A DNA stretch of 60,444 nt from Puniceicoccaceae bacterium (GTDB lineage: Bacteria; Verrucomicrobiota; Verrucomicrobiia; Opitutales; JAFGAQ01): positions 1 to 60,444 of the forward strand of contig JANQOQ010000009.1 in the NCBI GenBank assembly GCA_028285755.1, given 5' to 3'. Shown here piece after piece: positions 5,521 through 59,437 of this stretch. Below the pieces are notes generated by a model. That model was not told the DNA's origin. It saw nothing but the letters and a program-made list of their open reading frames with translations, and did no database searches. Within the stretch, counting starts at the first letter, position 1; each line of letters starts with the position of its first letter. The position numbers and the translations under genes were made by a program.

Positions 5521-5532
5521 ACCATTTTTGGT

Positions 5533-6773: not shown

Positions 6774-6831
6774 ACTTCCTGCCCTGGGTACTGCAAAACT
6801 ACCCTAAAATCTCCATATTTAACTTGAACCC

Positions 6832-8859: not shown

Positions 8860-8884
8860 AACCTTTACCAGAATTATTTCTCAG

Positions 8885-8920
8885 AAACCGGTGATCTCAA
8901 AAATCACCGGTTTTTTATTT
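8885..8920 (+). terminator. Terminator of tkt
   Basis: AAACCGGTGAT (8885-8895) pairs with ATCACCGGTTT (8903-8913) across a seven-base loop, then T6-A-T3 follows. It is 25 bases after the transketolase stop, a textbook intrinsic terminator. Confidence 0.92.
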
Positions 8921-8998
8921 TTAAGATTTGACGCCCCCCGCAAAAACCATTCTAACAGACGTTTCATTACTTCACACGTGTAGTGAAAGCTGATGGAT

Positions 8999-9074
<76 letters not shown>

Positions 9075-9105
9075 TTCATTTTGTATTAGTTCCTGCTTGA
9101 TTGGG

Positions 9106-9924
9106 TTAGTCGATAATGACTTGGGAAGGGTCGTAATCCACTTCAGGATAGCTCAGGTGCATGTCTTCAAGGCATGCGACTACGATTCTTGCGACTAACA
9201 GGTTGCGAGCCCATTTCTTATTCGATGGAATGATGTACCAAGGTGCGTGGTCAAAACTGGTTTCAGCAAAGGCTTCCTCGTAAGCCGCCTCATATTCTTC
9301 CCACTTGCTGCGCGCGACCAGGTCCGAAGGCTCAAACTTCCAGTGCTTTGCTGGAATGTCGAGCCGCTCCTGAAGGCGTTTCTTCTGAGTCTCCTTATTT
9401 ATATGGAGGAAGAACTTCAAGATTACTGTTTCCTCGTCAGCGAGCAGTTGCTCGAAATCGCGTATGTGTCGGTAACGTTTGCGCCAGACTTCTTCAGGCT
9501 TGAGATGATTGACCCTGACAGCCAGCACATCTTCATAATGGCTGCGGTCAAAAATCACAATTTCGCCATTGGAGGGAGTTTGTTTGTGAACACGCCAGAG
9601 GTAATCGTGGGAAAGCTCTCGAGAGGATGGGCGGTCAAAGCTCGCGACGTGCACGCCTTGCGGGTTCACGCCTCTGAAGACATGACGTATCGTGCCGTTC
9701 TTCCCACTTGTATCCATCCCCTGTAAGATGAGGAGAAGTTTTTTCCTTCGGTCTACGAAGAATCGTTGCTGTAAATCGGCCAACTTGATGTGCAAATCGT
9801 GAAGCTCATCTTTAGCATCAGACTTTGCTTTCTGTACGTCCTCCCAAGGATCTGAGGGAACTGTCGCCAGTTGGCTGTTTTGCCCTGGCTGAATACGATA
9901 GTGCTGAAAATTGCTTATGCTCAT
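9106..9924 (-). CDS. ppk2: PPK2-family polyphosphate kinase
   Basis: This 272-residue P-loop protein of the PPK2 family transfers phosphate between polyphosphate and nucleotides. The Walker A-like loop GMDTSGKNG is at 69-77, the Walker B region IVIFDRSHYEDVL lies near 122-134, and the lid region follows with basic residues (WRKRYRHIRDFE). The C-terminal PWYIIPSNKKWARN is typical of the short single-domain (class I/III-like) enzymes. Which direction and nucleotide it prefers cannot be read from sequence alone. It has its own promoter region and converges on tRNA-Phe. Confidence 0.93.
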   Translation of the reverse strand: MSISNFQHYRIQPGQNSQLATVPSDPWEDVQKAKSDAKDELHDLHIKLADLQQRFFVDRRKKLLLILQGMDTSGKNGTIRHVFRGVNPQGVHVASFDRPSSRELSHDYLWRVHKQTPSNGEIVIFDRSHYEDVLAVRVNHLKPEEVWRKRYRHIRDFEQLLADEETVILKFFLHINKETQKKRLQERLDIPAKHWKFEPSDLVARSKWEEYEAAYEEAFAETSFDHAPWYIIPSNKKWARNLLVARIVVACLEDMHLSYPEVDYDPSQVIID

Positions 9925-10104
9925 TCGAGTTGCATTTGAATCTGTTGGGATGTTTCAGCACAGTCAACAGTTGATCTCATCATCTTTTTGTCGGTAAATA
10001 CTCTCAATTAACCTAAACTAAATCACTGAGTCCAAGCAAGTGTGAGCTTGTGGCTTGTAGAATACGGATAATACAATACTAGAGATAGACAACCGGTGCA
10101 AAAT

Positions 10105-10143
10105 ATCGATTATAGTTAAACAATTGGCGAGCGTATAATCGAT
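10105..10143. promoter_or_regulatory. Perfect 10-base inverted repeat upstream of the SIS gene
   Basis: ATCGATTATA (10105-10114) and TATAATCGAT (10134-10143) are exact inverted copies with a 19-base spacer, centres 29 bases apart, in the 268-base gap between the divergent PPK2 and SIS genes. The spacing suits a dimeric or two-site regulator. It does not match the TCTAACNGTTAGA motif found further on, so a different regulator is implied. No other feature is evident in the gap. Confidence 0.5.
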
Positions 10144-10192
10144 TCATATTGCTTGTGCTTATGGTTCTACATCCTAAATAATACCCTACATT

Positions 10193-11266
10193 ATGCCTTC
10201 AGCAGACAATAGAGACAGTGATTTAAATGCAGTGATTAAAGGACCTTACTTTAATGATATAATGGCGCAGCCGGCAGCGATCGAATCGAGCAGCCGAGCT
10301 ATCTCTCCAAACGTAATGAATGCAATCAATATGGATAGCCTAAAGCAAAGGGGCATTCGGCGTATCGTGCTCACCGGGATGGGTAGTTCCTTGCATGCAT
10401 TATATCCTCTGCATTTATGTCTTAACAATGCTGGCATTGTCTCCACCCAGATTGAAACTGCCGAGTTACTGCACGAATACCCTTTGCTGAGAGGAAAGGA
10501 TGTTTTGTTGATTTTAGTTTCGCAGTCGGGTGAAAGTGCCGAAGTGGTTAAACTCCTTCAAAACGGTGATGAATTCGGCATTATTCTCGGGATTACCAAC
10601 AATCCGGATTCCACCCTCGGTAGGAGGGCAGATTACACGCTTTTATTGCAGGCTGGTGAAGAGGCTACTGTTTCCTGTAAAACGTATCTGGCAACGCTTT
10701 CCGTACTCCATCAACTGGGGACGCTCCTTGTCGGTGAAGATGTGGATATAGTCGATAAGTCACTATTAAGAGTAGGAAATTTTGTAAAAGAATACCTGAA
10801 AAACTGGAAGACACATGTGAGTGAGATCCTAGGCCTGCTCAAAGGCGCGGAAAACTATTTTGTGATCGGGCGTTCTTATTCCTTGGCCACAGCGCTTACC
10901 GGAGGGCTTATCTTGAAAGAGTCTACCCGCAAACATGCCGAGGGTATGAGCAGTGCCGCTTTCCGGCATGGGCCGTTTGAAATGCTCAGTGATCGTGTAT
11001 TTGTGCTGGTTTTTGAAGGCAGGCAGGATGTATCATCACTGAATAATCGCATTGCTGAGGACATTCTAAGTGCAGGTGGGCGAACGGCTTTCTCTGCGGT
11101 AAACAATCCAACACACGATGTTTTTAGATTGCCAAAGGTAAATTCTGAGCTTTTGCCAATGGTCGAAATTTTATCAGTCCAAATGATGTCGCTGGCCATC
11201 GCAGCTTTGGATGGAAACGAGGCGGGGGCCTTCGAAAGGGCCACTAAAGTTACCCGGGTTGAGTGA
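10193..11266 (+). CDS. SIS-domain sugar-phosphate isomerase/deaminase (GlmS-like isomerase half)
   Basis: The 357 residues contain two SIS domains and lack the glutamine amidotransferase domain of GlmS. Domain 1 shows the sugar-phosphate-binding GMGSSLHAL and SQSGESAEVVKLL. Domain 2 shows VIGRSYSLATA and then STRKHAEGMSSAAFRHGP, matching the catalytic helix of GlmS-type isomerases (HAE..HGP). Relatives include AgaS and FrlB, which deaminate or deglycate amino-sugar phosphates, so a catabolic role on an amino sugar is plausible. It lies at the edge of the sulfatase/LacI region but has a different upstream inverted repeat, so membership of that regulon is uncertain. Confidence 0.85.
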   Translation: MPSADNRDSDLNAVIKGPYFNDIMAQPAAIESSSRAISPNVMNAINMDSLKQRGIRRIVLTGMGSSLHALYPLHLCLNNAGIVSTQIETAELLHEYPLLRGKDVLLILVSQSGESAEVVKLLQNGDEFGIILGITNNPDSTLGRRADYTLLLQAGEEATVSCKTYLATLSVLHQLGTLLVGEDVDIVDKSLLRVGNFVKEYLKNWKTHVSEILGLLKGAENYFVIGRSYSLATALTGGLILKESTRKHAEGMSSAAFRHGPFEMLSDRVFVLVFEGRQDVSSLNNRIAEDILSAGGRTAFSAVNNPTHDVFRLPKVNSELLPMVEILSVQMMSLAIAALDGNEAGAFERATKVTRVE

Positions 11267-11318
11267 GGTTAGCATTCAGTGATCTTCGATAAACAAAAAG
11301 ATAGCCGTGCAACTGTGT

Positions 11319-12827
11319 TTAATGAGCCTTAGAGGTATTGAGTATATGAGGTATTGGGGCTTGGGTTTCTTTTACCCATTGATCTATTTCAGTTTTGAGT
11401 TCTTTAAATATCGTTGGGTATTGCCTGGATAATTCGCGTGTTTCGCCAGGATCTTTGGCTATGTTATATAGCTCAGCTGAGTTAAATTCATAATACCAAA
11501 TGAGTTTCCAGTCTCCTGATATACATACGGTTGAGGGTACCGCTCTCCATATGTTAGGCGTGCCATCAAAGGCGGGGATAACTAATTCATTGGCATTTCC
11601 TCCTAGATATAGAGGGAAATGAAAAAAGATGTCCCTATCAGGAGGACTATCATTATTTACAAATTGAAATAAAGAATCACCATCCTGGGGTTGGCTTTTG
11701 GGTAAACGCGCACCGGATACTTCGGCGAGTGTGGGAAAAATATCGACACCGGATACAGGGGCCTGGATTCGGTTTTCTGAGATAGCTTTCGATCCCCATT
11801 TCAGGCAGAAGGGTACCCGGATGCCCCCTTCATAATAAGTCCCTTTTCCAGCTCTCAAGGGTGCATTATCCGTGACTGAGGACACGCCCCCGTTATCGGA
11901 GGTAAAGATAACGAGGGTGTTCTCGGTAAGACTCAGTTCCTCAAGAACTTTGAGGATTTCGCCTACGCTACTATCAACTTGTTCCACTTCAGCTGCATAG
12001 GTGGGGTCGAGCTTTTCCCAAAGGCTGTTTTTTGCTTTTTTATCTGAGTAATATTGAATCCGTTCTTCCAACGCGGATAGGGGAGTGTGAACCTCCCAAT
12101 GGGATAGATACACAAAGAAAGGCGTGTTTTTGCTTTCTTTGATGAAGTCTACAGCAGCCTCAGTTAAGTTTTGGGCGACATTGACGTCTGTGTAGAATCG
12201 TTGTTCCGTCCCGTTTACATTCGTTATAAACCCCGGCTCTCCATTGGCAGTTGATACATCAAAACCCTGATTATCATCACCGATATGCCATTTGCCAAAT
12301 CGCCCACTTCGGTAACCCTGCGCCTTCAATAACTCAGCGATCGATACGAAGCTGGGGTCTACCTGATTGATGCTTACATGAAAGGTATTAAAGCTTGCAT
12401 CAGCGCCCTGTGTAGGGGTTTTGAAGCGCATTTTGTCTATAGGGCCTCCCCGGGATAACCCTTGGGGTACATAAACATGGTGTCGGGGAGTGTAGGTGCC
12501 TGTTAGTAGGCTTGCGCGACTGGGGGCACAATTTGCAGCAGATGCATAGAAACGGTCAAAGATCACACCTTCGCTGGCCAGATAGTCTATGTTAGGGGTC
12601 TCATAGAAATTTTGCCCATTGTAGCCTACATCAGCCCAGCCGAGATCATCTGCTATGATCAATACAATGTTGGGGTTTTCAGATGTACTTGGGCTTCCCT
12701 CTAAATAAAGAGAACTTAATGGATGCAGAGTAACGAGCAGGAGACTAATGTAAGAAATTAGCCGGTATTTTCTAAAAAACCTATAAGTGCTAATACCCAT
12801 TATACCAGTGACGAATATACCGGACAT
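11319..12827 (-). CDS. Secreted S1-family sulfatase
   Basis: This arylsulfatase-type esterase hydrolyses sulfate groups, here probably on a polysaccharide. The formylglycine motif CAPSRASLLTG begins at Cys100. Metal-binding IIADDLGWADVGYNG lies near 58-71 and FTSDNGG plus KGTYYEGGIRVP lie further on. The N-terminus has a hydrophobic stretch (ISLLLVTLHPLSSLYL), so export is likely; ATG at 12800 is an alternative start. Activity requires a formylglycine-generating enzyme, which is not in this window. The operator-like palindrome TCTAACTGTTAGA lies 20 bases upstream of the start, and the LacI gene is divergent from it. Confidence 0.93.
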   Translation of the reverse strand: MSGIFVTGIMGISTYRFFRKYRLISYISLLLVTLHPLSSLYLEGSPSTSENPNIVLIIADDLGWADVGYNGQNFYETPNIDYLASEGVIFDRFYASAANCAPSRASLLTGTYTPRHHVYVPQGLSRGGPIDKMRFKTPTQGADASFNTFHVSINQVDPSFVSIAELLKAQGYRSGRFGKWHIGDDNQGFDVSTANGEPGFITNVNGTEQRFYTDVNVAQNLTEAAVDFIKESKNTPFFVYLSHWEVHTPLSALEERIQYYSDKKAKNSLWEKLDPTYAAEVEQVDSSVGEILKVLEELSLTENTLVIFTSDNGGVSSVTDNAPLRAGKGTYYEGGIRVPFCLKWGSKAISENRIQAPVSGVDIFPTLAEVSGARLPKSQPQDGDSLFQFVNNDSPPDRDIFFHFPLYLGGNANELVIPAFDGTPNIWRAVPSTVCISGDWKLIWYYEFNSAELYNIAKDPGETRELSRQYPTIFKELKTEIDQWVKETQAPIPHILNTSKAH

Positions 12828-12846
12828 TATTGCAAATGATAAAATA

Positions 12847-12859
12847 TCTAACTGTTAGA
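12847..12859. promoter_or_regulatory. Putative LacI operator, site 1 (sulfatase/lacI intergenic)
   Basis: TCTAACTGTTAGA is a palindrome with six-base arms around a central T. It lies in the 88-base gap between the divergent sulfatase and lacI genes, close to the sulfatase start. The same motif recurs at 17462-17505 (twice) and 21512-21525, always in front of glycan-utilisation genes. Recurrence in three intergenic regions beside a LacI gene supports an operator; binding itself is inferred. Confidence 0.75.
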
Positions 12860-12897
12860 ATTTGATGTCGCTTGACGGAGGTAATCGATATTTGATT

Positions 12898-12907
12898 GTG
12901 TGATAAT
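12898..12907 (+). promoter_or_regulatory. Possible extended -10 promoter of lacI
   Basis: TGTGATAAT resembles an extended -10 element and lies eight bases before the lacI ATG. No -35 box stands at 17 bases; TTGACG at 12872 is too far. If real, the transcript would be nearly leaderless. Confidence 0.3.
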
Positions 12908-12915
12908 ACTACCCC

Positions 12916-13947
12916 ATGGTGTCGATTCGGCAAATTTCCAAAGAAACTAATTTCAGCATCGCTACTGTTTCTGAAGCGCTCCGCAATACCGGACGTGTAA
13001 AAGAACACACGCGTGCAAAGATTTTGCAGGCGGCAGAAAAATTGGGCTATGAGCGAAATGCGCTTATCGGCGATGTCATGTCCAAGGTTAGACTATCGCA
13101 AATTTCCTCCCTAAAAGGGAATATTGCGGTATTGGAGAGCGAGAATTTTAAGAAGAACAGACAGAGTTCAGATTGGCATATTAAACTCTTTGATGGCGCT
13201 AATTTTCGTGCAAATGAACTGGGCTACAAATTGGATTTCTTTCCCTTCGACTCAACAAACCAATCTTTGAAGCGTTTGAACGATATCCTGTATAACCGAC
13301 ACATCGAGGGGGTGTTTTTGCCGCCCTATACCGGAGCCCGCGATATGGATGCTATTGATTGGAATCGCTTCTCCACGGTTCAATTGGATTATGGTTTGGA
13401 AAAAGTGCGCATGCATACGGTCATGCCTGATCACCACACCTCGATTATCAACACACTCAATAAGCTGGAATCACTGGGCTATCGAAGGCCGGGACTATGC
13501 ACCGAAAACTTTCAGGATAAACGCATTTACATGAAATGGTATGCGGGCTTTAAGGCATACGAAAATTGGTCAACCGTTTGTGAAAAGATACCAGTGTTCG
13601 AACCTGATAAGCTAAGTAAGGAAAATTTCATCAATTGGTATACTGAGAATAAGCCCGATGTTATTCTGGGTCATAATTCGGATCTTATCATGTGGTTGGA
13701 GTCAGCCGGCTTTAGGGTGCCGGAGGATGTTGGGTTCTTTAGCTTAAACCTGCACCATTCCAAGTTAAAAACCGCAGGGTTAAATCTAAGGCCCGATGTT
13801 CTGGGAGCTGCTGCGATCGATATACTGGTTTCCCAAATTCGACTGCAGCAAAAAGGAGTTCCTAAAATTGCATACACGACCGCAATCGAGGCTGAGTGGG
13901 TAGATGGGTATAGCATCAAAGAATCGAAGCCTGGTCTAAAATCCTGA
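12916..13947 (+). CDS. LacI-family transcriptional regulator
   Basis: The protein has 343 residues. The N-terminal helix-turn-helix reads IRQISKETNFSIATVSEALRN, followed by the LacI-type third helix and hinge (RAKILQAAEKLGYERNAL). The rest is a periplasmic-binding-protein-like effector domain with two lobes; GFRVPEDVGFFSLN is the usual late strand. The recognition-helix positions read I-A after FS, unlike E. coli LacI (Y-Q), so a different operator is expected. The stop shares one base with the symporter start (TGATG), so the two are co-transcribed. It probably represses the surrounding sulfatase, receptor and operon genes through TCTAACTGTTAGA sites and is relieved by a glycan breakdown product. 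Confidence 0.93.
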   Translation: MVSIRQISKETNFSIATVSEALRNTGRVKEHTRAKILQAAEKLGYERNALIGDVMSKVRLSQISSLKGNIAVLESENFKKNRQSSDWHIKLFDGANFRANELGYKLDFFPFDSTNQSLKRLNDILYNRHIEGVFLPPYTGARDMDAIDWNRFSTVQLDYGLEKVRMHTVMPDHHTSIINTLNKLESLGYRRPGLCTENFQDKRIYMKWYAGFKAYENWSTVCEKIPVFEPDKLSKENFINWYTENKPDVILGHNSDLIMWLESAGFRVPEDVGFFSLNLHHSKLKTAGLNLRPDVLGAAAIDILVSQIRLQQKGVPKIAYTTAIEAEWVDGYSIKESKPGLKS

Positions 13948-16052
13948 TGAGTATAATAGGCTTACACCCTGCGGATATATTCGTGCTGCTTGTCTATCTG
14001 GGCGTCATAATCTGGCTGGGCAAGAAAACCGCGGAAAAGAATGAGAACACGTCCGACTTCTTTCTGGCGGGAAGATCTTTAGGGAAATTTTATCAATTTT
14101 TCCTCAATTTTGGGGTGGGGACGAATTCAGACCAGGCAGTAGCGGTTACCCGGGAAACCTATCGCCAGGGGGTAGGCGGTATGTGGATACAGTTTATTGT
14201 CTTATTCCTGACTCCGTTTTTTTGGTTTACGACTTTGATGTACCGCAGGGCGCGATTGACCACGATCGGCGACTTTTTTGCCGAAAGGTTCAACAGTAAG
14301 GCATTGGGTGCGGGTTACGCCTGTTTTATACTCTTCTGGGCCTTTGTGGGTGGTGGTGTAGGCTATATGGTCGCTGCTAAGACCATGATGGCAATGACTC
14401 CAAAGAGTGAGGCTGCTCTCACCGTCTACGAGAAACAAGTTATTGCCGAGTATCGGGAGCTCCAGGAGCTGGGCGCGTTGACTATTTCTGAGCGAACGGA
14501 TGTGCAAAATACACGCTTTAATGTCCTTAAGCAGAAAGAGCTTAGGGGAGAGCTAAAGTCCTTTTACTCGCATACCGATCCCATTGTGTTTTATGTGATC
14601 TATGGGATCATTGTCGGCGTTTATACCATGTTGGGTGGTTTTAGGGCTGCCGCGATAACCGATGCTATTCAGGGCATGCTCATTATCTTTTTCTCAATGA
14701 TCCTGATACCCTTGGGCCTGAGTAAAATAGGGGGACTGGATGGCCTCCATGCAACGGTTCCTGAATTCAAATTTGAGCTATTTGGCTCTGCAGCATTAAG
14801 TGATTACGCTTGGTTTACGATTGCTGCGATGGCGATTGCTAACCTGGCGTCCATTATTGCTTTTCCCACGATGATGCAAACTGCGGGCTCTGCGACCAAT
14901 GAACGATCTGCCCGGTTTGGCCAGCTGGGGGGCATGTTTCTCAAGCGATTTTTGATGTTGGCCTGGATAATGACTGGCTTGATCGCGATTGGGCTCTATT
15001 CCGGCCAAATACATGATCCCGATCTGGTGTGGGGGTATATGAGTCGCGATCTTTTATGGCCCGGTTTTTTGGGCCTAATGCTGGTGGGGATACTCGCGGC
15101 GAATATGTCATCCTTGGATGCAATATCGGTTTCCAATGCTGCGCTGTTTATCCGAAATCTCTATCAGCCCCTGTTTCCCTATAAGTCTGAAAATCACTAC
15201 CTCTTCCTGAGTCGCTTAATTATTGCCATCTGCCTGATTGGAGGCATCTTTACCGCAGTCTATGTGGATAATCTGCTCGAGCTATTTAAGTATTTTATAT
15301 CCATTCCGGCTATATTTGGGGCACCGATTTGGCTGGGTTTCTTATGGCGCAGGCTGACAAAGACAGCCGTAGCCGTTGAGGTGATAGTTTGTTTCGCTCT
15401 ATTTGCAGTCATACCCAATTTGTTTTTGTCCCTGGATTGGGCAAAGTATAATCCTCAGTTTTTGGTTCAAACCAACGGTTATTTCCATGATTACAATCAA
15501 CCCGCTACGCTTGAAGATGTGGAGCTTGGACGGGCAGAAGTCGTTGGTGAAACCATAATGAAAGAAGTCTGGATCGAGCCCAAGGGCATTTTCTTTGAAA
15601 GGGTGGTTCGGGTAGATCCGGAAGATCCGGACTCGCCGTTAATGGGCATGGGTCGGTTTGAAGCTGAGATCTGGGTGCTCAGTTTACTGGGTATCGATTT
15701 TACTGATTTCAGGAAGTCCGAGCTGGTGGCCATTCGCTTTATATTTAACGCGCTATTTCCCTTTCTATTATTATTTCTGGTTTCCTGGATTACGAAACCG
15801 GTATCACCCAAGCTTTTGGATTATCTCTCAGCCAAACTGTACACGGAGGTGAATCAAGACCTGGAAAAAGATGCAAAACTTGTGGAAGAAGCTGCAGACA
15901 ACCCGGATACGATTCGCCACAAAAAGTTATTCCCCAATAGTAATTGGGAAATCGCTAAGATGAAGAAAGAGGACTATTGGGGATTTGGCGGCAGTTGCGT
16001 GCTCGTGTTGATCGTACTGCTTGTGCTCTGGGCAATGGTCACAATCCACTAA
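13947..16052 (+). CDS. Sodium:solute symporter (SSS family)
   Basis: This 701-residue inner-membrane transporter of the SSS/SglT type probably carries a sugar or sugar acid released by the neighbouring enzymes. The N-terminus shows VYLGVIIWLGKKTAEKNENT then DFFLAGRSLGKF, the family's first helices, and later helices contain VGVYTMLGGFRAAAITDAIQG and GILAANMSSLDAISVSNAAL. It is longer than usual (about 500-600). Extra length comes from a charged insert near residues 150-205 and a hydrophilic loop near 500-590 before the last helices. It is translationally coupled to lacI. Confidence 0.93.
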   Translation: MSIIGLHPADIFVLLVYLGVIIWLGKKTAEKNENTSDFFLAGRSLGKFYQFFLNFGVGTNSDQAVAVTRETYRQGVGGMWIQFIVLFLTPFFWFTTLMYRRARLTTIGDFFAERFNSKALGAGYACFILFWAFVGGGVGYMVAAKTMMAMTPKSEAALTVYEKQVIAEYRELQELGALTISERTDVQNTRFNVLKQKELRGELKSFYSHTDPIVFYVIYGIIVGVYTMLGGFRAAAITDAIQGMLIIFFSMILIPLGLSKIGGLDGLHATVPEFKFELFGSAALSDYAWFTIAAMAIANLASIIAFPTMMQTAGSATNERSARFGQLGGMFLKRFLMLAWIMTGLIAIGLYSGQIHDPDLVWGYMSRDLLWPGFLGLMLVGILAANMSSLDAISVSNAALFIRNLYQPLFPYKSENHYLFLSRLIIAICLIGGIFTAVYVDNLLELFKYFISIPAIFGAPIWLGFLWRRLTKTAVAVEVIVCFALFAVIPNLFLSLDWAKYNPQFLVQTNGYFHDYNQPATLEDVELGRAEVVGETIMKEVWIEPKGIFFERVVRVDPEDPDSPLMGMGRFEAEIWVLSLLGIDFTDFRKSELVAIRFIFNALFPFLLLFLVSWITKPVSPKLLDYLSAKLYTEVNQDLEKDAKLVEEAADNPDTIRHKKLFPNSNWEIAKMKKEDYWGFGGSCVLVLIVLLVLWAMVTIH

Positions 16053-16083
16053 AACAAAAGAGTAAGATTTTGACTGGGCCAAT

Positions 16084-17394
16084 CTAGTCTCGATTCTCAA
16101 CGAAGTTTAAATTGGAAACATCCTTGGTCTCGAGAAAACCATTCCAGTGATCGACCTCTTCTCCGGCTATTTTTACACTGCTCTCCCGGATGATTAAACC
16201 ATCGACATAGTGGGCAGTAATACACCCCAGATTGCCGGGTGTAAATCCTCCGTGTTCTTCAGAATGTCGGGGTCTCAGGTCATAGTTGGATACAGGGAAT
16301 TTACTTTTTTTAGATATTATGCCTTGTACGCCCTCTAGAACTATATTCTTTATAGGAGAATGCTTTGTGCCTACAATAAATACTCCATTTTCGCTACGAA
16401 ATAATATATTCTTGCAAATAACATTTTTTACAATGCCGGGTTCTTCATAATCGTGCCTCTCCACTGCAGTTATGTATATGGCTTCACCATTTCCCCAGTA
16501 TTTATTATGAAATTTTCGGGTCTCAATTAAACAATTAGTAAACATTATGTTTTCAACAGTTCCTTGATCCCTGAGTTGTATGGATAAGCCCCGATGCGAT
16601 TTCTTGATAATACAGTTGCTGACAATTACATCCCGTATATTATTGTGAGATTCAGTGCCGATTTTAATCGCTGAGGATGTGCTGATAATCGTGCAGCCCA
16701 GTATAACGATATTCTCACTATCTCCATATTCTGAAAATTCCTTGGTTGTCTTAATGACGATGCCATCATCCCCGCATTCAATGTGACAGTTACTAATGCG
16801 AACATTTTTGCAGTGATCCGGATCAATTCCATCACAGTTGGGGATATCGAGGCCGTTTTTAATCGTGACCGAATCAATAACCACCTCGTTACAACCCGTT
16901 AACTGGCAGGTCCATTGAGCTGCATTCTTAATGTATATATCATTGATTTTTATATTGTTACAACCAATTAAGCCGATGATTCTGGCCCTGAATTCTTTGG
17001 GTTTTCGGATGTATTCACCATCGTCGGTCCACCAACCATCCATAAATGCCTCGGCCTGACCGTCGATTGTGCCACTACCCTGAATACTGATGTTTTTGCT
17101 ATTATTGGAGGTAATTAAAAATGAACCACGATTACCTCCATATTCACCTACAATATGGGAGGCTTTATAGTCGGTTTCATTACGACTTGCCTGAAGGGTA
17201 GCACCATTCTCTAGGTATAAATCGACATTACTTTTGAGCTCGATTGTCCCGCTAACGTAAACACCCCCTGAGGGTATAACTACTCTACCTCCACCCTGAT
17301 TGTGACAATGGTCTATCGCTGCTTGAATCGCACTTGTACAAATAGTTTTGCCATCGTTGATTGCATCAAATTTATCGATAGAGTAGATCTTCAT
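16084..17394 (-). CDS. GH28-like polygalacturonase-family glycoside hydrolase, apparently cytoplasmic
   Basis: This 436-residue right-handed beta-helix enzyme belongs to GH28. The N-terminus shows the family start (DAINDGKT..TSAIQAAID..GGGRVVIPSGGVY). The catalytic region has NCDGIDPDHC (Asp188, Asp191) and CGDDGIVIK (Asp209-Asp210), then SSAIKIGTES and HRGLSIQLRD. Bacterial GH28 members cut galacturonosyl or related uronic or rhamnosyl linkages; which one is unknown here. There is no signal peptide, so it should act in the cytoplasm on imported oligosaccharides. It is divergent from the TonB receptor and shares two mirrored operator sites with it. Confidence 0.9.
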   Translation of the reverse strand: MKIYSIDKFDAINDGKTICTSAIQAAIDHCHNQGGGRVVIPSGGVYVSGTIELKSNVDLYLENGATLQASRNETDYKASHIVGEYGGNRGSFLITSNNSKNISIQGSGTIDGQAEAFMDGWWTDDGEYIRKPKEFRARIIGLIGCNNIKINDIYIKNAAQWTCQLTGCNEVVIDSVTIKNGLDIPNCDGIDPDHCKNVRISNCHIECGDDGIVIKTTKEFSEYGDSENIVILGCTIISTSSAIKIGTESHNNIRDVIVSNCIIKKSHRGLSIQLRDQGTVENIMFTNCLIETRKFHNKYWGNGEAIYITAVERHDYEEPGIVKNVICKNILFRSENGVFIVGTKHSPIKNIVLEGVQGIISKKSKFPVSNYDLRPRHSEEHGGFTPGNLGCITAHYVDGLIIRESSVKIAGEEVDHWNGFLETKDVSNLNFVENRD

Positions 17395-17459
17395 TTAAAT
17401 AATTTGGGGTTTTAATACATTATTTAAATATATTCTTATTATAGCGCTATAGTTTCTTG

Positions 17460-17507
17460 AATCGAACAGTTAGATTGATTTTTGATTCAGATTCTAACTG
17501 TTCGATT
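17460..17507. promoter_or_regulatory. Mirrored pair of putative LacI operators, sites 2 and 3 (GH28/receptor intergenic)
   Basis: AATCGAACAGTTAGA (17460-17474) and TCTAACTGTTCGATT (17493-17507) are exact reverse complements with an 18-base spacer. Each contains a variant of the 13-base palindrome (TCGAACAGTTAGA and TCTAACTGTTCGA). Centres lie 31 bases apart, about three helical turns, so two dimers could bind the same face or a tetramer could bridge them. The remaining 200-base gap holds only AT-rich sequence with a small TTAATA/TATTAA repeat at 17522-17538. Confidence 0.78.
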
Positions 17508-17593
17508 TATACTTCGATTGATTAATATTTAGTATTAATAGTAGTATTCCCACAATCGTTTATCCCGATTACCCTATTAATATACTACGAATT

Positions 17594-19870
17594 ATGAAAA
17601 TTAGTGAAAATATATTATATTCTCGTTACTTCACGGTAGGTAATATAATTACTAACTGTATAGCGATCTGCTTAGCGGCTTTACTACTGCTGGATACAGC
17701 AAAGATAAATGCTCAAGATGATGATGATGTTCTCAACCTTGACGCCTTTGTTGTGCAGTCGGACCTGTTGACTACTTACAGGGCACCGGATACGATTTCG
17801 GCGACCGGTATTAACGTGCCCATTTTGGATGTTCCCTTAACTATCAGTGTATTAACCGAAGGTAGGATCGTGGATAACAACGCCTTCGAAATGCACCAGA
17901 TCCTGGATACGATTCCGACGGTTCAAACTTCAATCCGGAATGAGTCCTCCTTTAACCTTCGGGGGTTTTCTGCATTGACCCTTTATCGTAATGGTCACTA
18001 TCGCAGACAGTTGTTCCCCACCTGGAACGTCGACCGTGTTGAGGTCATTAAAGGACCCTCTGCAATTTACCATGGTCAGGCACGTCCCGGGGGTGTGATC
18101 AACTACATCACCCGCCGCCCGAGCTCCGTCAGGAGTACCAGTATTCGTACAAGTATGGGTACCGGGGCAGACGCTAACAGCCAGTGGCGTGCTGAAATTA
18201 CGCATACCGGCGCATTAAACGACTTTATCAGCTATCGTGTGGGTGCTGGCCATTGGGAAGGGGGCGACTGGCACTTGGATTGGCGCAATCGTGAAAATTA
18301 CGTAGGTGGCTCCTTTGAAATAAAGCCGAGTGATCGATTAACCATTCTGCTCGATTTTGAGCATATTGACCGTAATCGTTCAGACGGTGAAACCCTGACA
18401 CAGAGTTTTGATACCGTCAATGGGCTTCGTACACACCTGCCGGATTCATTCTTTGGCGGCCCATCCAGAAGGTATGAATTCAATGTAGGTGGCAGTGAGT
18501 CATTTCGCGATTATCGTTCATGGACTGCTGAAGCGGAAATCAGCTACCAGATCCTTGATTGGTTACTTTTCCGTCAGACCATTAATTATTCGGTAGATGA
18601 TTTTGAAGTTCTCAGAACTTTCATCACTCCCGTACGACCCAACAATAATTCAAATATTGCTTCACTACATGTCGGCCACTTTGCAAATTGGAGAGATAAC
18701 TTCAGCTACGATACTGCGCTAATCGCACAATATAAGGGCGATATCTTTTCAAATACATTCCAGGTAGGTTTGGATATTCAGAGTGTTCATAATACAACCC
18801 CAGGTTTTGGACGCAGAAATGGCCGTCGGGGTCCTGTATTCCGTTACAATATGGCTACCGGCGAATTCCCGGATTTTCCGAATAAGGAGGCCGAGTACCC
18901 ATTGGCTGTACAAACTTACGTGAATGAAATTGAGGGTCTTACTCGTCATGGGCAATGGAATGACCTGCGTCGTCGTGTCGAAAAGGACAATGGTTTCTAC
19001 TTCCTGAACATGACCGACTTAATGGATGAGCGTTTGCGTGTTATCTGGGGTATGCGCTACGTTGAGACTTCCCGTGAGCAGCACTTCGACTCTCAACCCC
19101 CTGAGGAGCGCGGTGAGATCAACTTTGAAAATGATGGCTGGGTGCCCCAAATTGGCTTTAACTTCGACCTCACTGAAGGATTAACATTCTATTCCGTTTA
19201 CAGTGAGTCAGTTGAGAGAAACAACCGTGAAGACGCTCTGGGTGTTACCGGTGAGCCCATTGAGAGTTTCGGCTACGATGTGGGCTTTAAGTTCGAGCTC
19301 CAGGATACTGGGTTGGCGGGAACAGTTAACTACTGGTTGCTGAATCGGGGTAACCAAACTGAGCGTGACTTCGATCGTGAAGCGCGTGAGATGCTTTCCC
19401 CATTCTTCTTTTTCGGCTTGGAGCAAGAAACATCTGGTTTCGAAATTGATCTGTCGTATATGCCTATGCCTAACTGGCAAATGACGTTCGGCTACAGCTA
19501 CTTCCTGAAGCACGAAACGGTGGCTTCTACGCAAAATCCGCAGAATATTGGTCAGGAGTTTGCAGTCGTTCCGCAGCAGTTCAGTTTCTGGAATCGCTAC
19601 AACTTTACAGATAGTGTTGTAGAAGGCTTATCCATCGGTGGTGGCGTTAAGTGGTTGGACGACCGTGAAGATCCGCGTTGGGTGAATGGCGTTAGCAACC
19701 CATCTCTGCTGACTGTTGATATATTTGCAAAATATCAAATACCGGGCACTGGTGAAAAATACCGTCATACAGTGGGTATCAATATCAACAACCTCTTTGA
19801 TAACTACGAGGTATTCTCTACCGCACAGGCCCCTCGTATTTTCTTCGTGAACTATTCACTCGATTTCTAA
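17594..19870 (+). CDS. TonB-dependent outer-membrane receptor
   Basis: The 758 residues form a plug-plus-barrel receptor energised by TonB. A signal peptide ends near INAQ at about residue 40, then an acidic stretch and LNLDAFVVQ, resembling the TonB box of verrucomicrobial receptors. The plug domain shows LTISVLTEG, FNLRGFS, VDRVEVIKGPSAIYHGQARPGG and VINYITRRP. The barrel runs to a C-terminal aromatic end (NYSLDF). Plug motifs resemble siderophore receptors, but the position among sulfatases and GH28, under the same operator type, argues for oligosaccharide uptake. No SusD partner is present, as is usual outside Bacteroidota. Confidence 0.94.
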   Translation: MKISENILYSRYFTVGNIITNCIAICLAALLLLDTAKINAQDDDDVLNLDAFVVQSDLLTTYRAPDTISATGINVPILDVPLTISVLTEGRIVDNNAFEMHQILDTIPTVQTSIRNESSFNLRGFSALTLYRNGHYRRQLFPTWNVDRVEVIKGPSAIYHGQARPGGVINYITRRPSSVRSTSIRTSMGTGADANSQWRAEITHTGALNDFISYRVGAGHWEGGDWHLDWRNRENYVGGSFEIKPSDRLTILLDFEHIDRNRSDGETLTQSFDTVNGLRTHLPDSFFGGPSRRYEFNVGGSESFRDYRSWTAEAEISYQILDWLLFRQTINYSVDDFEVLRTFITPVRPNNNSNIASLHVGHFANWRDNFSYDTALIAQYKGDIFSNTFQVGLDIQSVHNTTPGFGRRNGRRGPVFRYNMATGEFPDFPNKEAEYPLAVQTYVNEIEGLTRHGQWNDLRRRVEKDNGFYFLNMTDLMDERLRVIWGMRYVETSREQHFDSQPPEERGEINFENDGWVPQIGFNFDLTEGLTFYSVYSESVERNNREDALGVTGEPIESFGYDVGFKFELQDTGLAGTVNYWLLNRGNQTERDFDREAREMLSPFFFFGLEQETSGFEIDLSYMPMPNWQMTFGYSYFLKHETVASTQNPQNIGQEFAVVPQQFSFWNRYNFTDSVVEGLSIGGGVKWLDDREDPRWVNGVSNPSLLTVDIFAKYQIPGTGEKYRHTVGININNLFDNYEVFSTAQAPRIFFVNYSLDF

Positions 19871-53939: not shown

Positions 53940-54031
53940 GGAGAGATGGCAGAGTGGTCTAATGCGCTGGTTTGCTAAACCGGTGAACTGCAAAAGCGGT
54001 TCCGGGGGTTCGAATCCCCCTCTCTCCGCCA
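53940..54031 (+). tRNA. tRNA-Ser (anticodon GCU)
   Basis: This is a 92-base class II tRNA. The acceptor stem GGAGAGA (53940-53946) pairs with TCTCTCC (54021-54027). The anticodon loop TTGCTAA carries GCT. A long variable arm follows, then a T arm GGGGGTTCGAATCCCCC, discriminator G and an encoded CCA. Transposon remnants begin directly downstream. Confidence 0.96.
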
Positions 54032-54060
54032 GTATTATATAAAGCTACACCTTCACCAGC

Positions 54061-54078
54061 GAGTTGTCACAACTCCTT
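54061..54078 (+). terminator. Palindrome after tRNA-Ser, possible weak terminator
   Basis: GAGTTGTCACAACTC is a perfect 15-base palindrome 30 bases after the tRNA, followed by CTTT. As a hairpin it has a five-base stem and a five-base loop. GAGTTGTC recurs at 54216-54223 and inverted at 54296-54303, so it may instead belong to the transposon-end repeats. Confidence 0.4.
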
Positions 54079-54164
54079 TAAACCTGAAATACGGTGAAAT
54101 ATCCTGAAATTAACGGGTTATGAAGGCTGAAAAATTGGAAACCTTAGATATATTTCAATCCAGA

Positions 54165-54303
54165 TGTCGCAGACAAAATCCATTTGTCGTAAAAGTGAAT
54201 TGAAGTGTCCAGAACGAGTTGTCCAAATGAATTTTACATAAGTCTTTGATGTGTAAATGTCACTTATATGACCTTGAAGAGCTCCTGTAAACTGCGACAA
54301 CTC
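54165..54303. repeat. TGTC-containing repeats resembling a transposon end
   Basis: TGTCGC (54165), TGTCGT (54185), TGTCC (54206) and TGTCC (54220) occur in direct orientation about 14-21 bases apart, and an inverted GCGACA lies at 54294-54299. Transposons with TniA/TnsB-type transposases carry several spaced transposase-binding sites at their ends, often beginning TGTC. The transposase fragment follows directly at 54319. No matching array is seen after the ATPase gene. Confidence 0.45.
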
Positions 54304-54318
54304 GGTTGAAATCGAAAG

Positions 54319-54849
54319 GTGGTCAAAGTCACCCGAAATGGAATTCGTTTAACTTTAAAGGGAAATACAGTCCATTACCGTAATGAGTATACCGGCAAGC
54401 TAATCGGTAGGAATGTAGCGGTTTGGTTGAACACCGAAGAAGTGATCCCGGATACTATAACGGTTACAGATACCCACAACCGAAATCCTCTGATAGTCGA
54501 AAAGGAAGTGGTATTACCCTCAATGACTGCTTCAAACGAAGACTTTGAAAAAGCTCAGGCCCAAGTGGATGCTCATAATGAATATGGTAAGACACTCTAC
54601 AGGACGATTACGAATCTTGAGAAGGACACCATGTTCAGAAGGACGAACTATATTGATCCCAGAACAAAGAATCTGGGTGAACGTATGCGAACCGGAAAGA
54701 AGAAGGTGAGTACTAAAAGGCAAAAGCAGAGGTTGATCTCAAGGAAAGAACAACAGCTTGGCCTCTCGGGAGAAAAGACAAATCAAGATTCGAACGATCT
54801 AGACCGCAAGCAAAGGGGCTTAAAGCTCATAGAGGAAGCAATCAAGTAA
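54319..54849 (+). pseudogene. C-terminal fragment of a Mu/TniA/TnsB-type transposase
   Basis: The 176-residue frame starts at GTG. Its first half (GIRLTLKGNTVHYRNEYTGK, then VAVWLNTEEVIPDTITVTD) matches the beta-barrel that follows the catalytic core in Mu-type transposases. A basic tail follows (KKKVSTKRQKQRLISRK), as in the part that contacts the partner ATPase. The DDE catalytic core and N-terminal DNA-binding domains, some 400 or more residues, are missing: a stop lies ten bases upstream and only 287 bases separate it from tRNA-Ser. It is therefore a truncated gene, although the remaining frame is still open. Its stop shares one base with the ATPase start (TAATG). Confidence 0.75.
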
Positions 54850-55953
54850 TGCCGGCGACCCGAATAGCAAAGAACCCTACTAAACTGAGACCCGAGCGCT
54901 TTATATCTCATGAAGCTTATTCGAATTACTTACCACTCAACCTCGTTGCAAAGCGCGCAGAACTATTGAGTGATCCGAATCAGCGTAGATTACTCTATTT
55001 CCTTCAAAACCAATCGTTGCAAACCGGAGGACTCTCAGTACTAAGCTCTGAATTAGCTGAGCAGTTTAATATGGATGCAACTCAGCTTCAATGTGAGTTG
55101 GAGCGTTTGTGTTTAGATCCGGATTTTGGGTTTAAGAACATTACCGGTAGTCGAGATCTCGTAGTTGTTATAGAAAAGTACAGACAAAAACTAAACAAAA
55201 CGGTGTCGCATGATTTGGCAGAAACCAGTATTAAACGACAGATCTTTGATTGTTTGGATTATGCTCTCGATGAAAAAGCCTTTGTTATTATTGAAGGTGA
55301 TAGTCGCATGGGTAAGACAGTTTCGGCTCAAAACTGGTGTGAACAGCATCAGGGTGAAGCTATTTATATAAAATTGGAACCCTGTGCGGATGAAAAATCC
55401 TTCTTCAGAACCATTGCACGCGCTATTGGAACTTCGTATAGCGCAGGACGTAAAAGCATTGAAATCAGACACCGCATTGAAGATGCACTTCATCTGACAA
55501 AGCAGCTACTTGTAATTGATGAAGCTCACTATATTCATAATTTGGCCAGACGACCGTCTTCAGAACCTCGAAAACTCGAATGGTTACGTTCCAGCCTTAT
55601 AGATAAAGGCGTTCCAATCGCCTTAATAAGCACACCTCAATGGGATCAACGCATCGCCTCAGCAGAGTCAGTCGATTGGATGGAATTCAAGGCAGATTAA
55701 GGGCCGTATCGGTCTCAAGAAAATGCTGCCTGCTAAACTCAATGAGAAAGACATAAAGGCAATCGTTAAACATCTTTACAAAGGTAATGACGAATGCGTC
55801 ATCAAACTCCTAACCGGCACTGGCTTTTACTACGATGAACATATTGCGGCTGTTGAACGCCTAGTCAAAAGAGCGAAATACTTCGCCAAGTTGGAGAAAA
55901 CCCAAGAGCCTATATTCGAGCACTTCCAAGAAGCATTTATGGGAATCAAATAA
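54849..55953 (+). pseudogene. Frameshifted TniB/TnsC/MuB-like AAA ATPase
   Basis: The first part (54849-55700) encodes 283 residues. An N-terminal helical region with an HTH-like segment (SVLSSELAEQFNMDATQLQC) precedes an AAA domain with Walker A GDSRMGKT and Walker B LLVIDEAHYI. It ends abruptly at VDWMEFKAD. In the next frame the protein continues as QIKGRIGLKKMLPAKLNEKD, which runs to 55953 as an open frame and supplies the missing C-terminus. One extra base near 55691-55692 (AAGG) accounts for the break. This ATPase normally directs the transposase to its target. No TniQ gene follows. Confidence 0.82.
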
Positions 55954-55988: not shown

Positions 55989-56591
55989 CTATTCCATTAA
56001 GTTCCATTCTGGTATTTTAGAGCAAATAAGTAAGTTTAAAGACAATATAATATAGAGCGATATGAATATCAGCAGCGAATATAGCAAATTTAGATCAAAT
56101 ACCCTTTGAAAGGAGTTTTCTTTTGGTATGTCTGTAAGTATTAATATTGGATCACCTGCAATTGATTCAAATTCTAATATCCTGCTATTTTGCTTTTTTA
56201 TTACCAAGTGCTGAATGGATAATAGTTCGTTCATGTCAACAGACTGCCATAGTCCCTTTTTGTATCTTACCTGAATTGATTCCAAATATCCTTCACCAAT
56301 ATGAGTAGATGGATCAATTCTTATACTTTTTATTTCTTTTTCACTTATGAAAGCTCTGATAACTGTTTCTTTATTTTCTAAAATCTCATAGCGACTCGAG
56401 CTCTCTTCATTGTAACTATTACCCGAATCATAAAAAATCTGGACTATTGTTGGCGTCTCAAATGAGGCCCTGAATTCTATATGCATTCCGTTAAGCGATA
56501 AATCAGGGAGAAATCTATAGCCATACAAAGTCGCACAGAGGCAAATTAACCCAATTGTCAGATATTTTAATGATTTTAATAACACTTTCAT
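55989..56591 (-). CDS. Unrecognised membrane-anchored protein
   Basis: The 200 residues have a membrane helix at each end (residues about 8-26 and 170-190) with a beta-rich extracytoplasmic middle (THIGEGYLESIQVRYKKGLW, LVIKKQNSRILEFESIAGDP). I know no family for it. It overlaps the upstream membrane-protein gene by four bases (ATGA), so the two are translated together and probably work together. The gene is AT-rich compared with the core region. Confidence 0.75.
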   Translation of the reverse strand: MKVLLKSLKYLTIGLICLCATLYGYRFLPDLSLNGMHIEFRASFETPTIVQIFYDSGNSYNEESSSRYEILENKETVIRAFISEKEIKSIRIDPSTHIGEGYLESIQVRYKKGLWQSVDMNELLSIQHLVIKKQNSRILEFESIAGDPILILTDIPKENSFQRVFDLNLLYSLLIFISLYIILSLNLLICSKIPEWNLME

Positions 56592-58639
56592 CGGGATAAA
56601 TTATTATTCGAATCATATTTACGTTTATTGAGCCAAATATATTTAGAATAATTTATTAACACTATCAGGCTAATAATGAGCGCAATTTCCCAAAATATGA
56701 GTGCAAATCTTCCGCTGGGCTTTAGTACAAATAGAGTTAAGTGGGATAAGATAGTCGCTAGAGCAATTATTTTGATGCCAAGGTCAATTTTCCTGATAAA
56801 TAAGGTTAATAGAGTAATGCTTATAATTGAAATTTTTAGTACAAGATTTGGCAGGTATAGAGATTCCCAGAATTCCCTTTGAAACGGTGAAATTGGGATA
56901 CTAGTAATCCACTCCTTGAGATGACTACTTATTAGTGAAATCGAAGGATTATCGAGATCCAACTTTAATATAGAGACTGCTGCCTCAATATAAATAGAGG
57001 GAGAAACCAGAGTATTAACACCTACAGATCTGGTTAGCAGAACAAATTCATTGCCGTAGATGTAGTTATGTAAAGGCATCATTGACATAGGAATAGCGAA
57101 TGCAGAAATAACGATGAGTATACCTGGTTTACTACTTGATTGCCACAATTTGAAGATAGTATACAGTAGCAATAATCCGGCAATTATAAGATAGTTTGGT
57201 CTGAAAAATACTACAATTCCCAGTAAAAAAAATCCAAGCGTTAGTAAATTGAGATAGTTGCTTTCCTTATCTATATTTTTGTATGCATCAAATAGCATAC
57301 CTAATGCCAGCATTAGGTATGTAAATGCCATTGGTTCTGCTAATCCCCATGCCGCATACTCCATATATCGAGCGTAGCTTAAATACCAGGGGTTCATTAA
57401 GAAAATCAGGGTAATAATCAGAGCATAACTTGGTATAATGAATTGACGTAAAAAGTAGAAGAAAGCTAAGGGCATCATAACCATAGTTAGTACAACTAAA
57501 TAGTTGGTGTCTCCAAAAAATATATCTTCTATCGATCTATAGAATCTATAAAATGGTACATAAAAGAATATTTTTTCCCCACCTTGCAGTGCCTCATAAA
57601 TATTGCCATTTGCCAGATCCTTAGTTATTTGATATCCAAGTCCTTCATGAAATAGACCATCACTACCTCCCCACAATGGTGGATGTTCATAGGTGAATAT
57701 TTCATACTTATGAGAAAACAAAACAAAAGCGATAGCTGCTAATTGAAAATAAATTATAAAGCGTTTAACAGAAATTTGGTAGCAAAGAATATAGGCAATT
57801 AAGATGCCTGTTATAGAAACTATCAGGTGAAGATAATCTAGGAATACAAGCGATTGACTTTTGATTAAAAATACGGGCTTCCATTCACTTGCATCGAATT
57901 TGGCAACCCATAGTCTCTTACCAACATCCTCCTGGTCAATGATGTATGAGTTTCTACCTTGACCATTCCACTCTTCAATACTGCCATCTTCCAATTCCCA
58001 AACGAACGGGCCATAATAAATTAATTCACTGCCGATCAATGCATTGTTAATTTCCCACATAAGGAAATAGGGCATCCGATCTCTAGGGATTTCGGAAATA
58101 TGATCATAAAAAGCATATCTTCTATCATTTACAAAACCAAATTTTTGACCCCCCAAATACGAAAATTCAATCTTTCTCGTTTGTCTTGAATATTTAGCAT
58201 CTTGCCAAAACGAATCACTGGAAAAAGCGTAAGTTTCTATTGGAATTCCATAGGGTTTCCATGAACCTGTTTTACCAAAGCTAGCATCTTCGACAGGGGG
58301 GAAAAGCTCATGAAATGCATTGCGATATTTTTCGTAAATGGGTTGAGGTAGTTCGTCCTTAAATGGATCCCTGTCTTCCCAGATTAAAAATGTGTTATGG
58401 CCTTCCTCAATCGTATAGAATGGAAGAATCATTCTCAGTAAGATGGTAAGCAACAATACCCCAGTTCCTAATGCGAGGCATTTCAAACTGCTTTTTAGCT
58501 GCGAAGCGGTTATAAGAATAATTAAAGTAGCCAAGATTAGCCACTTTTGGAAAATTACGATCGGTAGTCCAATTACTAGTATAGCTAAAAATAGAAATAA
58601 CCCAGTGAATAAAAATGTTTTCCAATTCCAATTTACCAT
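56588..58639 (-). CDS. Multi-span membrane protein, possible GT-C glycosyltransferase
   Basis: The protein has 683 residues. Three or four N-terminal helices precede a soluble extracytoplasmic domain of about 180 residues (around 85-265). Eight to ten more helices follow, with short loops such as LFHEGLGYQITKDLANGNIY that recall GT39/ArnT-like enzymes. Known catalytic motifs are not clear, so the glycosyltransferase idea rests on layout and on the divergent GT2 gene 75 bases away. The DNA is markedly AT-rich. Confidence 0.7.
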   Translation of the reverse strand: MVNWNWKTFLFTGLFLFLAILVIGLPIVIFQKWLILATLIILITASQLKSSLKCLALGTGVLLLTILLRMILPFYTIEEGHNTFLIWEDRDPFKDELPQPIYEKYRNAFHELFPPVEDASFGKTGSWKPYGIPIETYAFSSDSFWQDAKYSRQTRKIEFSYLGGQKFGFVNDRRYAFYDHISEIPRDRMPYFLMWEINNALIGSELIYYGPFVWELEDGSIEEWNGQGRNSYIIDQEDVGKRLWVAKFDASEWKPVFLIKSQSLVFLDYLHLIVSITGILIAYILCYQISVKRFIIYFQLAAIAFVLFSHKYEIFTYEHPPLWGGSDGLFHEGLGYQITKDLANGNIYEALQGGEKIFFYVPFYRFYRSIEDIFFGDTNYLVVLTMVMMPLAFFYFLRQFIIPSYALIITLIFLMNPWYLSYARYMEYAAWGLAEPMAFTYLMLALGMLFDAYKNIDKESNYLNLLTLGFFLLGIVVFFRPNYLIIAGLLLLYTIFKLWQSSSKPGILIVISAFAIPMSMMPLHNYIYGNEFVLLTRSVGVNTLVSPSIYIEAAVSILKLDLDNPSISLISSHLKEWITSIPISPFQREFWESLYLPNLVLKISIISITLLTLFIRKIDLGIKIIALATILSHLTLFVLKPSGRFALIFWEIALIISLIVLINYSKYIWLNKRKYDSNNNLSR

Positions 58640-58714: not shown

Positions 58715-59437
58715 ATGCAAGACTACTCTATTAGATTATGCGTAACTACTCCAATCGCAAATGAGGAAGAGACTATTGAGCGCTTCATGTCAGAGGTTTG
58801 TGCGCACTTATCAGAGGATGATCGGTTCATCATGGTAATTGATGACGTGAGCACTGATAGAACGCGTGCGATGGTTAATAATTATATTAAAAATAAGAAT
58901 GAAACGCGTATTAGTTTAATTGAGGCTCCAGAAAACCGTAATGTAGTAGATGCATATGTTCGTGGTTATAGGGAGGCATTATTATTGAATGCCCGGTGGG
59001 TGCTTGAAATGGATGCCGGCTTTAGCCACGAACCTTCACAGATTCCTAATTTTATCCAAAAAATGCAAGAGGGTTACGAGTATGTGGGAGGGAGTCGGTT
59101 TATACGCAATGGAAGCTATAAAGGTAGTACATATCGTCGCCTTCTGAGTGGAGGTGGGAGTTGGATAGCACGTTTGTTACTTGGCACAAAGATGACGGAT
59201 ATGACAAGCGGTTATCAATGCTTCACCCAGGAGGCCATTCAGTATGTGCTTGATCGTGGGATACAAAGTAAAGGCGCTTTTTTTCAAACTGAAATGAAAT
59301 ACTGGGTATCTAAGTTCAGGTGGTTCGAAATCCCAATCAACTATGGTAATACTGCAGCTACAGTACCAACTAGATACTTAAGTGATGCAACTAAGGGGTT
59401 TGTACGATTACTTAAATTGCACTATTTCAAGGGCTGA
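58715..59437 (+). CDS. GT2 family glycosyltransferase (dolichol-phosphate mannosyltransferase-like)
   Basis: This 240-residue GT-A fold enzyme transfers a sugar from a nucleotide donor. It shows PIANEEETIERF, the nucleotide-binding VIDDVSTDRTRAMV, the DxD-like EMDAGFSHEPSQIP, and DMTSGYQCFTQEAI, as in DPM1/polyprenyl-phosphate sugar synthases. No C-terminal membrane helices are present. It probably makes a lipid-linked sugar used by the neighbouring membrane protein; the donor is unknown. Confidence 0.9.
   Translation: MQDYSIRLCVTTPIANEEETIERFMSEVCAHLSEDDRFIMVIDDVSTDRTRAMVNNYIKNKNETRISLIEAPENRNVVDAYVRGYREALLLNARWVLEMDAGFSHEPSQIPNFIQKMQEGYEYVGGSRFIRNGSYKGSTYRRLLSGGGSWIARLLLGTKMTDMTSGYQCFTQEAIQYVLDRGIQSKGAFFQTEMKYWVSKFRWFEIPINYGNTAATVPTRYLSDATKGFVRLLKLHYFKG

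Follow-up and report, generated by a model that had tools for sequence, protein, structure and literature searches.

Why do the remains of a Mu- or Tn7-type transposon lie directly behind a tRNA-Ser gene? The locus belongs to a stretch of 60,444 nucleotides (the window), which is the whole of contig C6 of its source genome (G000; 4.25 Mb in 15 contigs). A first-pass annotation had described a wrecked element that starts at 54319, with only the C-terminus of the transposase left, its core gone, and with a broken ATPase gene. On the evidence below, the window probably holds a decayed member of a Mu-type lineage whose homing sites are class II tRNA genes and which has turned into a carrier of catabolic islands. 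The placement at a tRNA gene is surprising, since Mu is thought to insert almost anywhere.

A decayed transposition module

The transposase (A) fragment, 54319-54849, is an open frame of 176 codons. Against an intact 807-residue relative, its third residue pairs with position 623, so that it starts at about residue 621-623 and the N-terminal ~620 residues, including the catalytic region, are absent. The annotated loss of the core is borne out, and the claim of lost autonomous mobility is correct for this copy, which retains only the C-terminal quarter of a MuA-type transposase. The Pfam model Mu-transpos_C matches the fragment below its cut-off (E 0.007), and a transposase profile retrieved nothing significant from the PDB, where Mu transposase came up at E 0.8. 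A search for an intact copy, as the annotation had advised, revealed no intact A or B (ATPase) gene in the source genome; intact transposases were found only in other genomes, and the transposase and ATPase fragments of the window are the only sizeable ones in the source genome at the protein level.

The ATPase gene opens at 54849, meets a stop at 55700 and goes on in a different frame as far as 55953. Elsewhere in the source genome, a further copy (C15:878473-878135) reads through the break position in a single frame, and therefore the break near 55690, correctly annotated as such, would be a real difference between copies, a sequencing error being the other possibility. The protein matches the Pfam families AAA_22 (3.7e-16) and TniB (25.0 bits, cut-off 22.4) as well as PHROG 296, 'DNA transposition protein' (E 9.4e-21). 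Against the PDB, the family profile retrieves phage Mu B first (5.4e-12), followed by ShTnsC (3e-4) and Tn7 TnsC (1e-3). Of the original label 'Mu/Tn7-type', the Mu half is thereby favoured over the Tn7 half. The N-terminal extension, previously considered unusual, is a family trait, as all seven aligned ATPase relatives have sequence before the AAA domain. A helix-turn-helix within it is unconfirmed, the single-sequence AlphaFold model being poor (mean pLDDT 36); the models of the two window proteins (mean pLDDT 36 and 49) are too weak for use. No relatives of the window ATPase were found in GTDB contigs, IMG/VR, plasmids or phages.

Table 1. Features of the element and its surroundings in the window.
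Feature	Position	Strand	Evidence or remark
tRNA-Ser (GCT), putative target gene	53940..54031	+	ARAGORN, Rfam tRNA model; CCA ends at 54031
Native spacer, 14 bp, from tRNA CCA to element terminus	54032..54045		Sequence differs at other tRNA sites
Left end (LE)	54046..54310	+	Terminus TACACCTTC..; 82% identical LE on C9; genome copies; alignment; site spacing and enrichment
MuA-type transposase, C-terminal 176 residues only, fused directly to LE	54319..54849	+	
MuB-type AAA ATPase, N-terminal extension and most of AAA domain; frame broken near end	54849..55700	+	
MuB-type ATPase, C-terminal part in second frame	55708..55953	+	tblastn to intact relative and to copies on C15, C2 and C11
First part of cargo, up to contig end	55989..60444		No right end within window
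Membrane-type ORF (cargo)	55989-56591	-	
Membrane-type ORF (cargo)	56588-58639	-	
Family 2 glycosyltransferase (cargo)	58715-59437	+	
Contig-end 86 bp identical to ends of C9 and C10	60359..60444		Join inferred

A family of about ten copies with two kinds of end

The element begins at 54046 and not, as annotated, at 54319; its left end (LE) had been missed. When the DNA behind the tRNA gene (54032-54330) was used as a query in its own genome, it returned one copy (C9) with 82% identity to the window LE over 265 bp and several partial matches. With up to three mismatches, the terminal 22-mer of the LE occurs at nine places in the source genome, against none for the reversed control, and a tenth, degenerate LE on C1 emerged from the LE alignment and the right-end search. 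The element is wrecked, as the annotation held, but it is not a lone one: about ten LE-bearing copies exist in the same genome.

The aligned LE copies open with TACACCTTC, one of them with AACACC. In the window LE, TGTC points inward at LE positions 20, 120, 140, 161, 175 and 213 and is inverted at 251, and these places are nearly kept in the LE copies on C9 and C15. Shuffled LEs average about one TGTC, and of 5000 shuffles 0, 0 and 0.6% gave counts as high as those observed; a motif common to the surroundings of the TGTC sites is visible. A second type of end (right end, RE) adjoins five of the LEs, while elsewhere REs diverge sharply after ..GGTGCA. The LE and the reverse complement of the RE form an inverted repeat (T[AG]CACCTTCGTCG...). 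The first TGT stands at position 20 in 17/17 ends of the source genome (for C2:399 after its terminus was re-set by 6 bases) and in 6/7 ends of the relatives described below; the second stands at 41-42 in 8/8 right ends (with the same 6-base shift for C2:399) and in 3/6 MuB-side ends of relatives. Right ends start with TG in 8/8 cases, and left ends with TA in 8/9 and with AA in one. The source genome thus has the Mu-type arrangement of paired ends that bear several transposase sites and TG...CA termini. The spacing, too, is similar to that of Mu attL and attR, with a terminal site, a gap and an inner cluster on the left and two sites 22 bp apart on the right.

The possibility that the LE was a small standalone MITE was dropped after the right ends were found. 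The LE pattern had no matches in GTDB contigs. Among 372 genomes of the order it occurred, at up to three mismatches, in 92; outside the source genome the listed matches are single, scattered and mostly at three mismatches, and we read them as chance. One right end, C2:399192-399345 (-), is an orphan for which no left end was found, and a tRNA-Arg gene 9 kb upstream of it is without an LE. On C9, part of the right-end region, 250 bp long, occurs twice side by side (C9:12823-13073 and C9:13354-13603; 98% identity).

Left ends lie at class II tRNA genes, tRNA fragments or other copies

The adjacency to tRNA-Ser noted in the first pass holds: the terminus of the element lies 14 bp behind the CCA. 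All ten LEs occupy one of three contexts. Three follow an intact tRNA gene, Ser-GCT (window), Ser-GGA (C2) or Leu-TAG (C11), with the LE terminus 14, 15 and 16 bp behind CCA at the three genes; two follow exact 3′ fragments of tRNA-Ser, of 17 and 16 nt; and five (on C9, C10, C7, C15 and C1) abut the RE of another copy. In 2000 random contig stretches, the longest match to a tRNA fragment was 12, and none of the 2000 reached 13.

We read the 3′ flanks of all 38 tRNA genes of the source genome, one of which is only 26 bp long at a contig end. An LE is present in three, with scores of 22, 23 and 26 of 26, and the other 35 flanks score 15 or less. All three LE-bearing tRNAs are class II, a class that makes up 9 of the 38 (P 0.01). 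For the window alone, random insertion within 20 bp behind one of the 38 genes has a probability of ~2e-4 (38 x 20 / 4.25 Mb). In place of the near-random target choice of Mu-type elements, the copies in the source genome show a preference for tRNA flanks. The tRNA is the putative target site of the element and not a chance neighbour; a lone wreck beside a tRNA by chance was rejected, since 10/10 LEs adjoin a tRNA, a tRNA fragment or a tandem partner. A search for 5-bp target duplications gave nothing convincing: tandem arrays have gaps of about 4-6 bp, which differ from the outer flanks. In the related element of genome G027 (below), CAGT stands on both sides, offset by one.

Genes for tRNA-Ser and tRNA-Leu are common integrase sites, and a tyrosine integrase might have placed the islands at tRNA 3′ ends, with the A/B remnants and the TGTC-rich ends as mere passengers. 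The two LEs behind tRNA 3′ fragments without a 5′ half look as an attachment-site copy would. However, the shared block starts 14-16 bp behind the CCA after an unrelated spacer, not inside the tRNA, and it is bounded by an inverted repeat that carries spaced TGTC sites. No integrase is present among 29 island proteins scanned (many island ORFs lie outside that scan), nor among the scanned proteins of the G027 and G302 elements, which carry A and B. By eye, no tRNA repeat is seen in the right-end flanks. We consider placement by an integrase very unlikely and rejected it as the main reading.

Two of seven intact relatives occupy the same position in other genera

An ATPase search of the 372 genomes of the order gave eight with a match at E 1e-12 or better, namely the source genome and seven others. 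By ORF reading, all seven possess whole or nearly whole A and B genes. Where tested, the neighbouring genes are of phage type (tape measure, Mu portal, capsid GP7), and two of the three whole-length transposases tested match PHROG 310. The element in G027 spans 12,953 bp (4735 to 17687 of its contig), is bounded by an inverted repeat and contains capsid and tape measure genes; 14 bp separate its start from the CCA-equivalent of tRNA-Ser(CGA). For a second G027 copy (C99), the LE would lie beyond the contig. The G302 element has its MuB-side end next to tRNA-Leu(CAA), likewise 14 bp behind the CCA. That terminus is weak by sequence (15/24, against a background of up to 16) but has TGT at 1, 20 and 41, and the case rests on position and spacing, not on terminus sequence. 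Orientation varies, with the LE at the tRNA in G027 and the MuB-side end in G302.

Phylogenetic analysis of the ATPase (9 rows) and of the transposase C-terminus (8 rows) gave unrooted trees with long branches and with G042 outside, in which MuB and MuA both split {G000, G027 a and b, G302} from {G082, G024, G279, G368} (97/98 and 100/99); the two relatives with an element end at a tRNA thus group with the window proteins, away from relatives that have no tRNA nearby. The ATPase N-terminal motif ER[FY]..xEA[YF]..LVAKR is shared by G000, G027 and G302, whereas G082, G279, G368 and G042 lack it (G024 was outside the test). Proteins of the G027 and G302 elements had one distant match only in IMG/VR; against phages and plasmids they gave 28% matches, one of them to a protein named transposition protein B.

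These relatives bear on whether an ordinary, randomly inserting Mu-like prophage simply decayed beside a tRNA by chance. Most of the related A/B pairs lie in prophage-like contexts, and in five of the seven genomes (G024, G042, G082, G279 and G368) no tRNA lies in the stretches scanned, the far ends in G368 and G042 being undelimited. Set against this, the contexts of the ten LEs and the equal spacing in three genera make chance scarcely credible. In G082, Zot-like and filamentous-phage-type genes, identified by eye, lie beside the Mu-like A/B genes (C2, about 254950-258146).

Relation to Mu and Tn7-like elements

Like phage Mu A and B (PHROG 310 and 296), the lineage combines a MuA-type transposase that has a Mu-type C-terminus with a MuB-type ATPase downstream, has ends with clustered sites and, beside the intact relatives, prophage genes. 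Unlike Mu, the window clade sits 14-16 bp behind Ser/Leu tRNAs, and the copies in the source genome carry catabolic cargo. The available sections of PMC7350765 describe Mu as 'one of the most indiscriminate' elements in target choice and as avoiding mature tRNA sequence, and they include a proposal that derives Mu from a targeted, Tn7-like ancestor through the discarding of its selectors. The Mu branch is separate from the Tn7 branch in the accessible parts of four papers (PMC10293859, PMC8649781, PMC11406308, PMC7350765). At the level of titles and listings, we found nothing fitting on Mu-like elements with tRNA target sites or on such cargo carriers in Verrucomicrobia.

For Tn7-like elements, excerpts of PMC10293859 and PMC11406308 document tRNA homing through TnsD/TniQ or guide RNAs, and the latter names tRNA genes as common sites for phages, Tn7-like elements and ICEs. 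As far as these excerpts go, Tn7-like elements with tRNA att sites (CAST I-B2, I-D and V-K) resemble the copies described here in fixed-distance insertion, an unbroken tRNA, large cargo and end arrays. They differ in using TniQ/TnsD or a guide RNA, none of which was found here. This is a weak negative, for TniQ gave no match in the source genome but 14 control genomes were equally silent, so that the search shows little. CAST I-D (CyCAST) inserts 30-33 nt behind tRNA-Leu (PMC10293859, excerpt), compared with 14-16 here, and the ATPase here is nearer to Mu B. The Tn5053/Tn402 elements (TniA/TniB) resemble the window element in the above-cut-off Pfam TniB match of its ATPase; their target is a resolution site (PMC11406308, in the part available), whereas it is a tRNA flank here, and the TniQ search, whose controls were silent too, found none.

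A Tn7-like element proper, whose now lost TniQ/TnsD selector read the tRNA, would agree with the documented tRNA homing, with CAST I-D behind tRNA-Leu (PMC10293859, PMC11406308, both in part) and with the TniB match. Yet the closest solved relative is Mu B, PHROG 296 and 310 are phage transposition families, none of ten proteins of the G027 and G302 elements is a TniQ, and the spacing differs from that of CAST I-D; this origin therefore appears unlikely.

We favour a Mu-type lineage with tRNA homing. In its intact ancestor, genes for a MuA-type DDE transposase and for a MuB-type AAA ATPase would have lain between two ends of spaced transposase-binding sites. From what is known of MuA/MuB and Tn7, A would bind the TGTC sites and join the ends to target DNA; the ATPase would capture the target, with its own N-terminal domain or a partner guiding it to the tRNA flank, and the complex would pick a point 14-16 bp behind the CCA of a class II tRNA gene (Ser, Leu) without damage to the tRNA. 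Seen directly are the end family with its inverted repeats, the tRNA position, the A/B remnants and intact A/B at the same tRNA spot in two other genera; we infer that A/B made the insertions in the source genome. More tentatively, and with appreciable doubt, the MuB-type ATPase itself (through the clade-specific N-terminal domain) or a small partner might recognise class II tRNA genes with neither TniQ nor a guide RNA and so place the element 14 bp behind the CCA, and the element, freed of phage life, might carry polysaccharide-degradation islands between genomes.

If true, a MuA/MuB module can be site-specific, with the kind of tRNA homing so far known for Tn7-like elements, which bears on the origin of Mu from a Tn7-like targeted ancestor proposed in the available part of PMC7350765. 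Target choice by MuB is directly open to test through a comparison of homing and non-homing N-termini.

Islands, cargo and copy history

Same-orientation LE/RE pairs delimit islands of 34.1 kb (C2) and of 18.5 and 17.9 kb (C15, in tandem). The ends of the window, C9, C10, C1, C2, C7, C11 and C13 overlap exactly by 86-99 bp, and pairs across such contig ends give islands of 9.5 kb (C2/C7) and 34.7 kb (C11/C13, with a weak RE). For the window element, C9 and C10 hold the nearest right end in the right orientation; joined across contig ends, the element would measure 22.4 kb through C9 or 31.4 kb through C10. These two contigs are alike at both ends, as in an assembly bubble, hinting that the sequenced population contains two variants of the island downstream of the window. 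C9 and C10 share 74% identity over the first 3.6 kb.

A Pfam scan covered 29 island proteins and one cargo protein of the window, many island ORFs lying outside it. Matches include sulfatases, TonB plug proteins, sodium:solute symporters, FecR, ECF sigma factors, MGH1-like glycoside hydrolases, an ILVD/EDD dehydratase and others; virion structural genes are absent among the 29 island proteins. A pair of ECF sigma and FecR genes, in some cases assigned by order and size only, lies behind the LE on C2 (twice), C10 and C1; on C9 it lies deeper inside. The islands hold five sulfatases in 70.4 kb, compared with about 2.4 expected from the 143 matches in 4.25 Mb. This is not clearly denser, and an enrichment was rejected; with 143 matches in the genome as a whole, sulfatase-type cargo is therefore not special to the islands. 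The source genome is unusually sulfatase-rich for its 4.25 Mb, all 143 matches being to PF00884.

The C-terminal part of the ATPase lies behind the LE in five copies (window, C15 twice, C2 and C11). By codon position, the window differs from the C15 copy at 11, 10 and 38 sites and from other copies at 11, 14 and 41 and at 14, 10 and 30; dN is 0.15-0.18 and dS above 1 or saturated. As differences pile up at third positions, the ATPase copies diverged as working genes. The copies on C2, C15:860 and C11 have one short LE-to-ATPase junction in common, a pattern that the spread of a derivative lacking A would leave. The relation of the three is not fully clean, since between C2 and C15:860, too, most differences fall at third positions.

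A history consistent with these data would begin with a lineage that includes small prophages, whose members in the source genome became carriers of 10-35 kb blocks, partly of polysaccharide-utilisation genes, arranged in tandem behind the same tRNA. A and B would have decayed later, in the window through an internal deletion that fused the LE to the last quarter of A and through the frame break in B, and copies without A/B would have been moved in trans by a helper. If so, the element would be a vehicle that moves sulfatase/TonB gene blocks between degraders of algal polysaccharides. Very long ORFs, of 2869 and 2130 residues on C9 and 3500 and 2334 on C10, lie near the right-end side of the islands.
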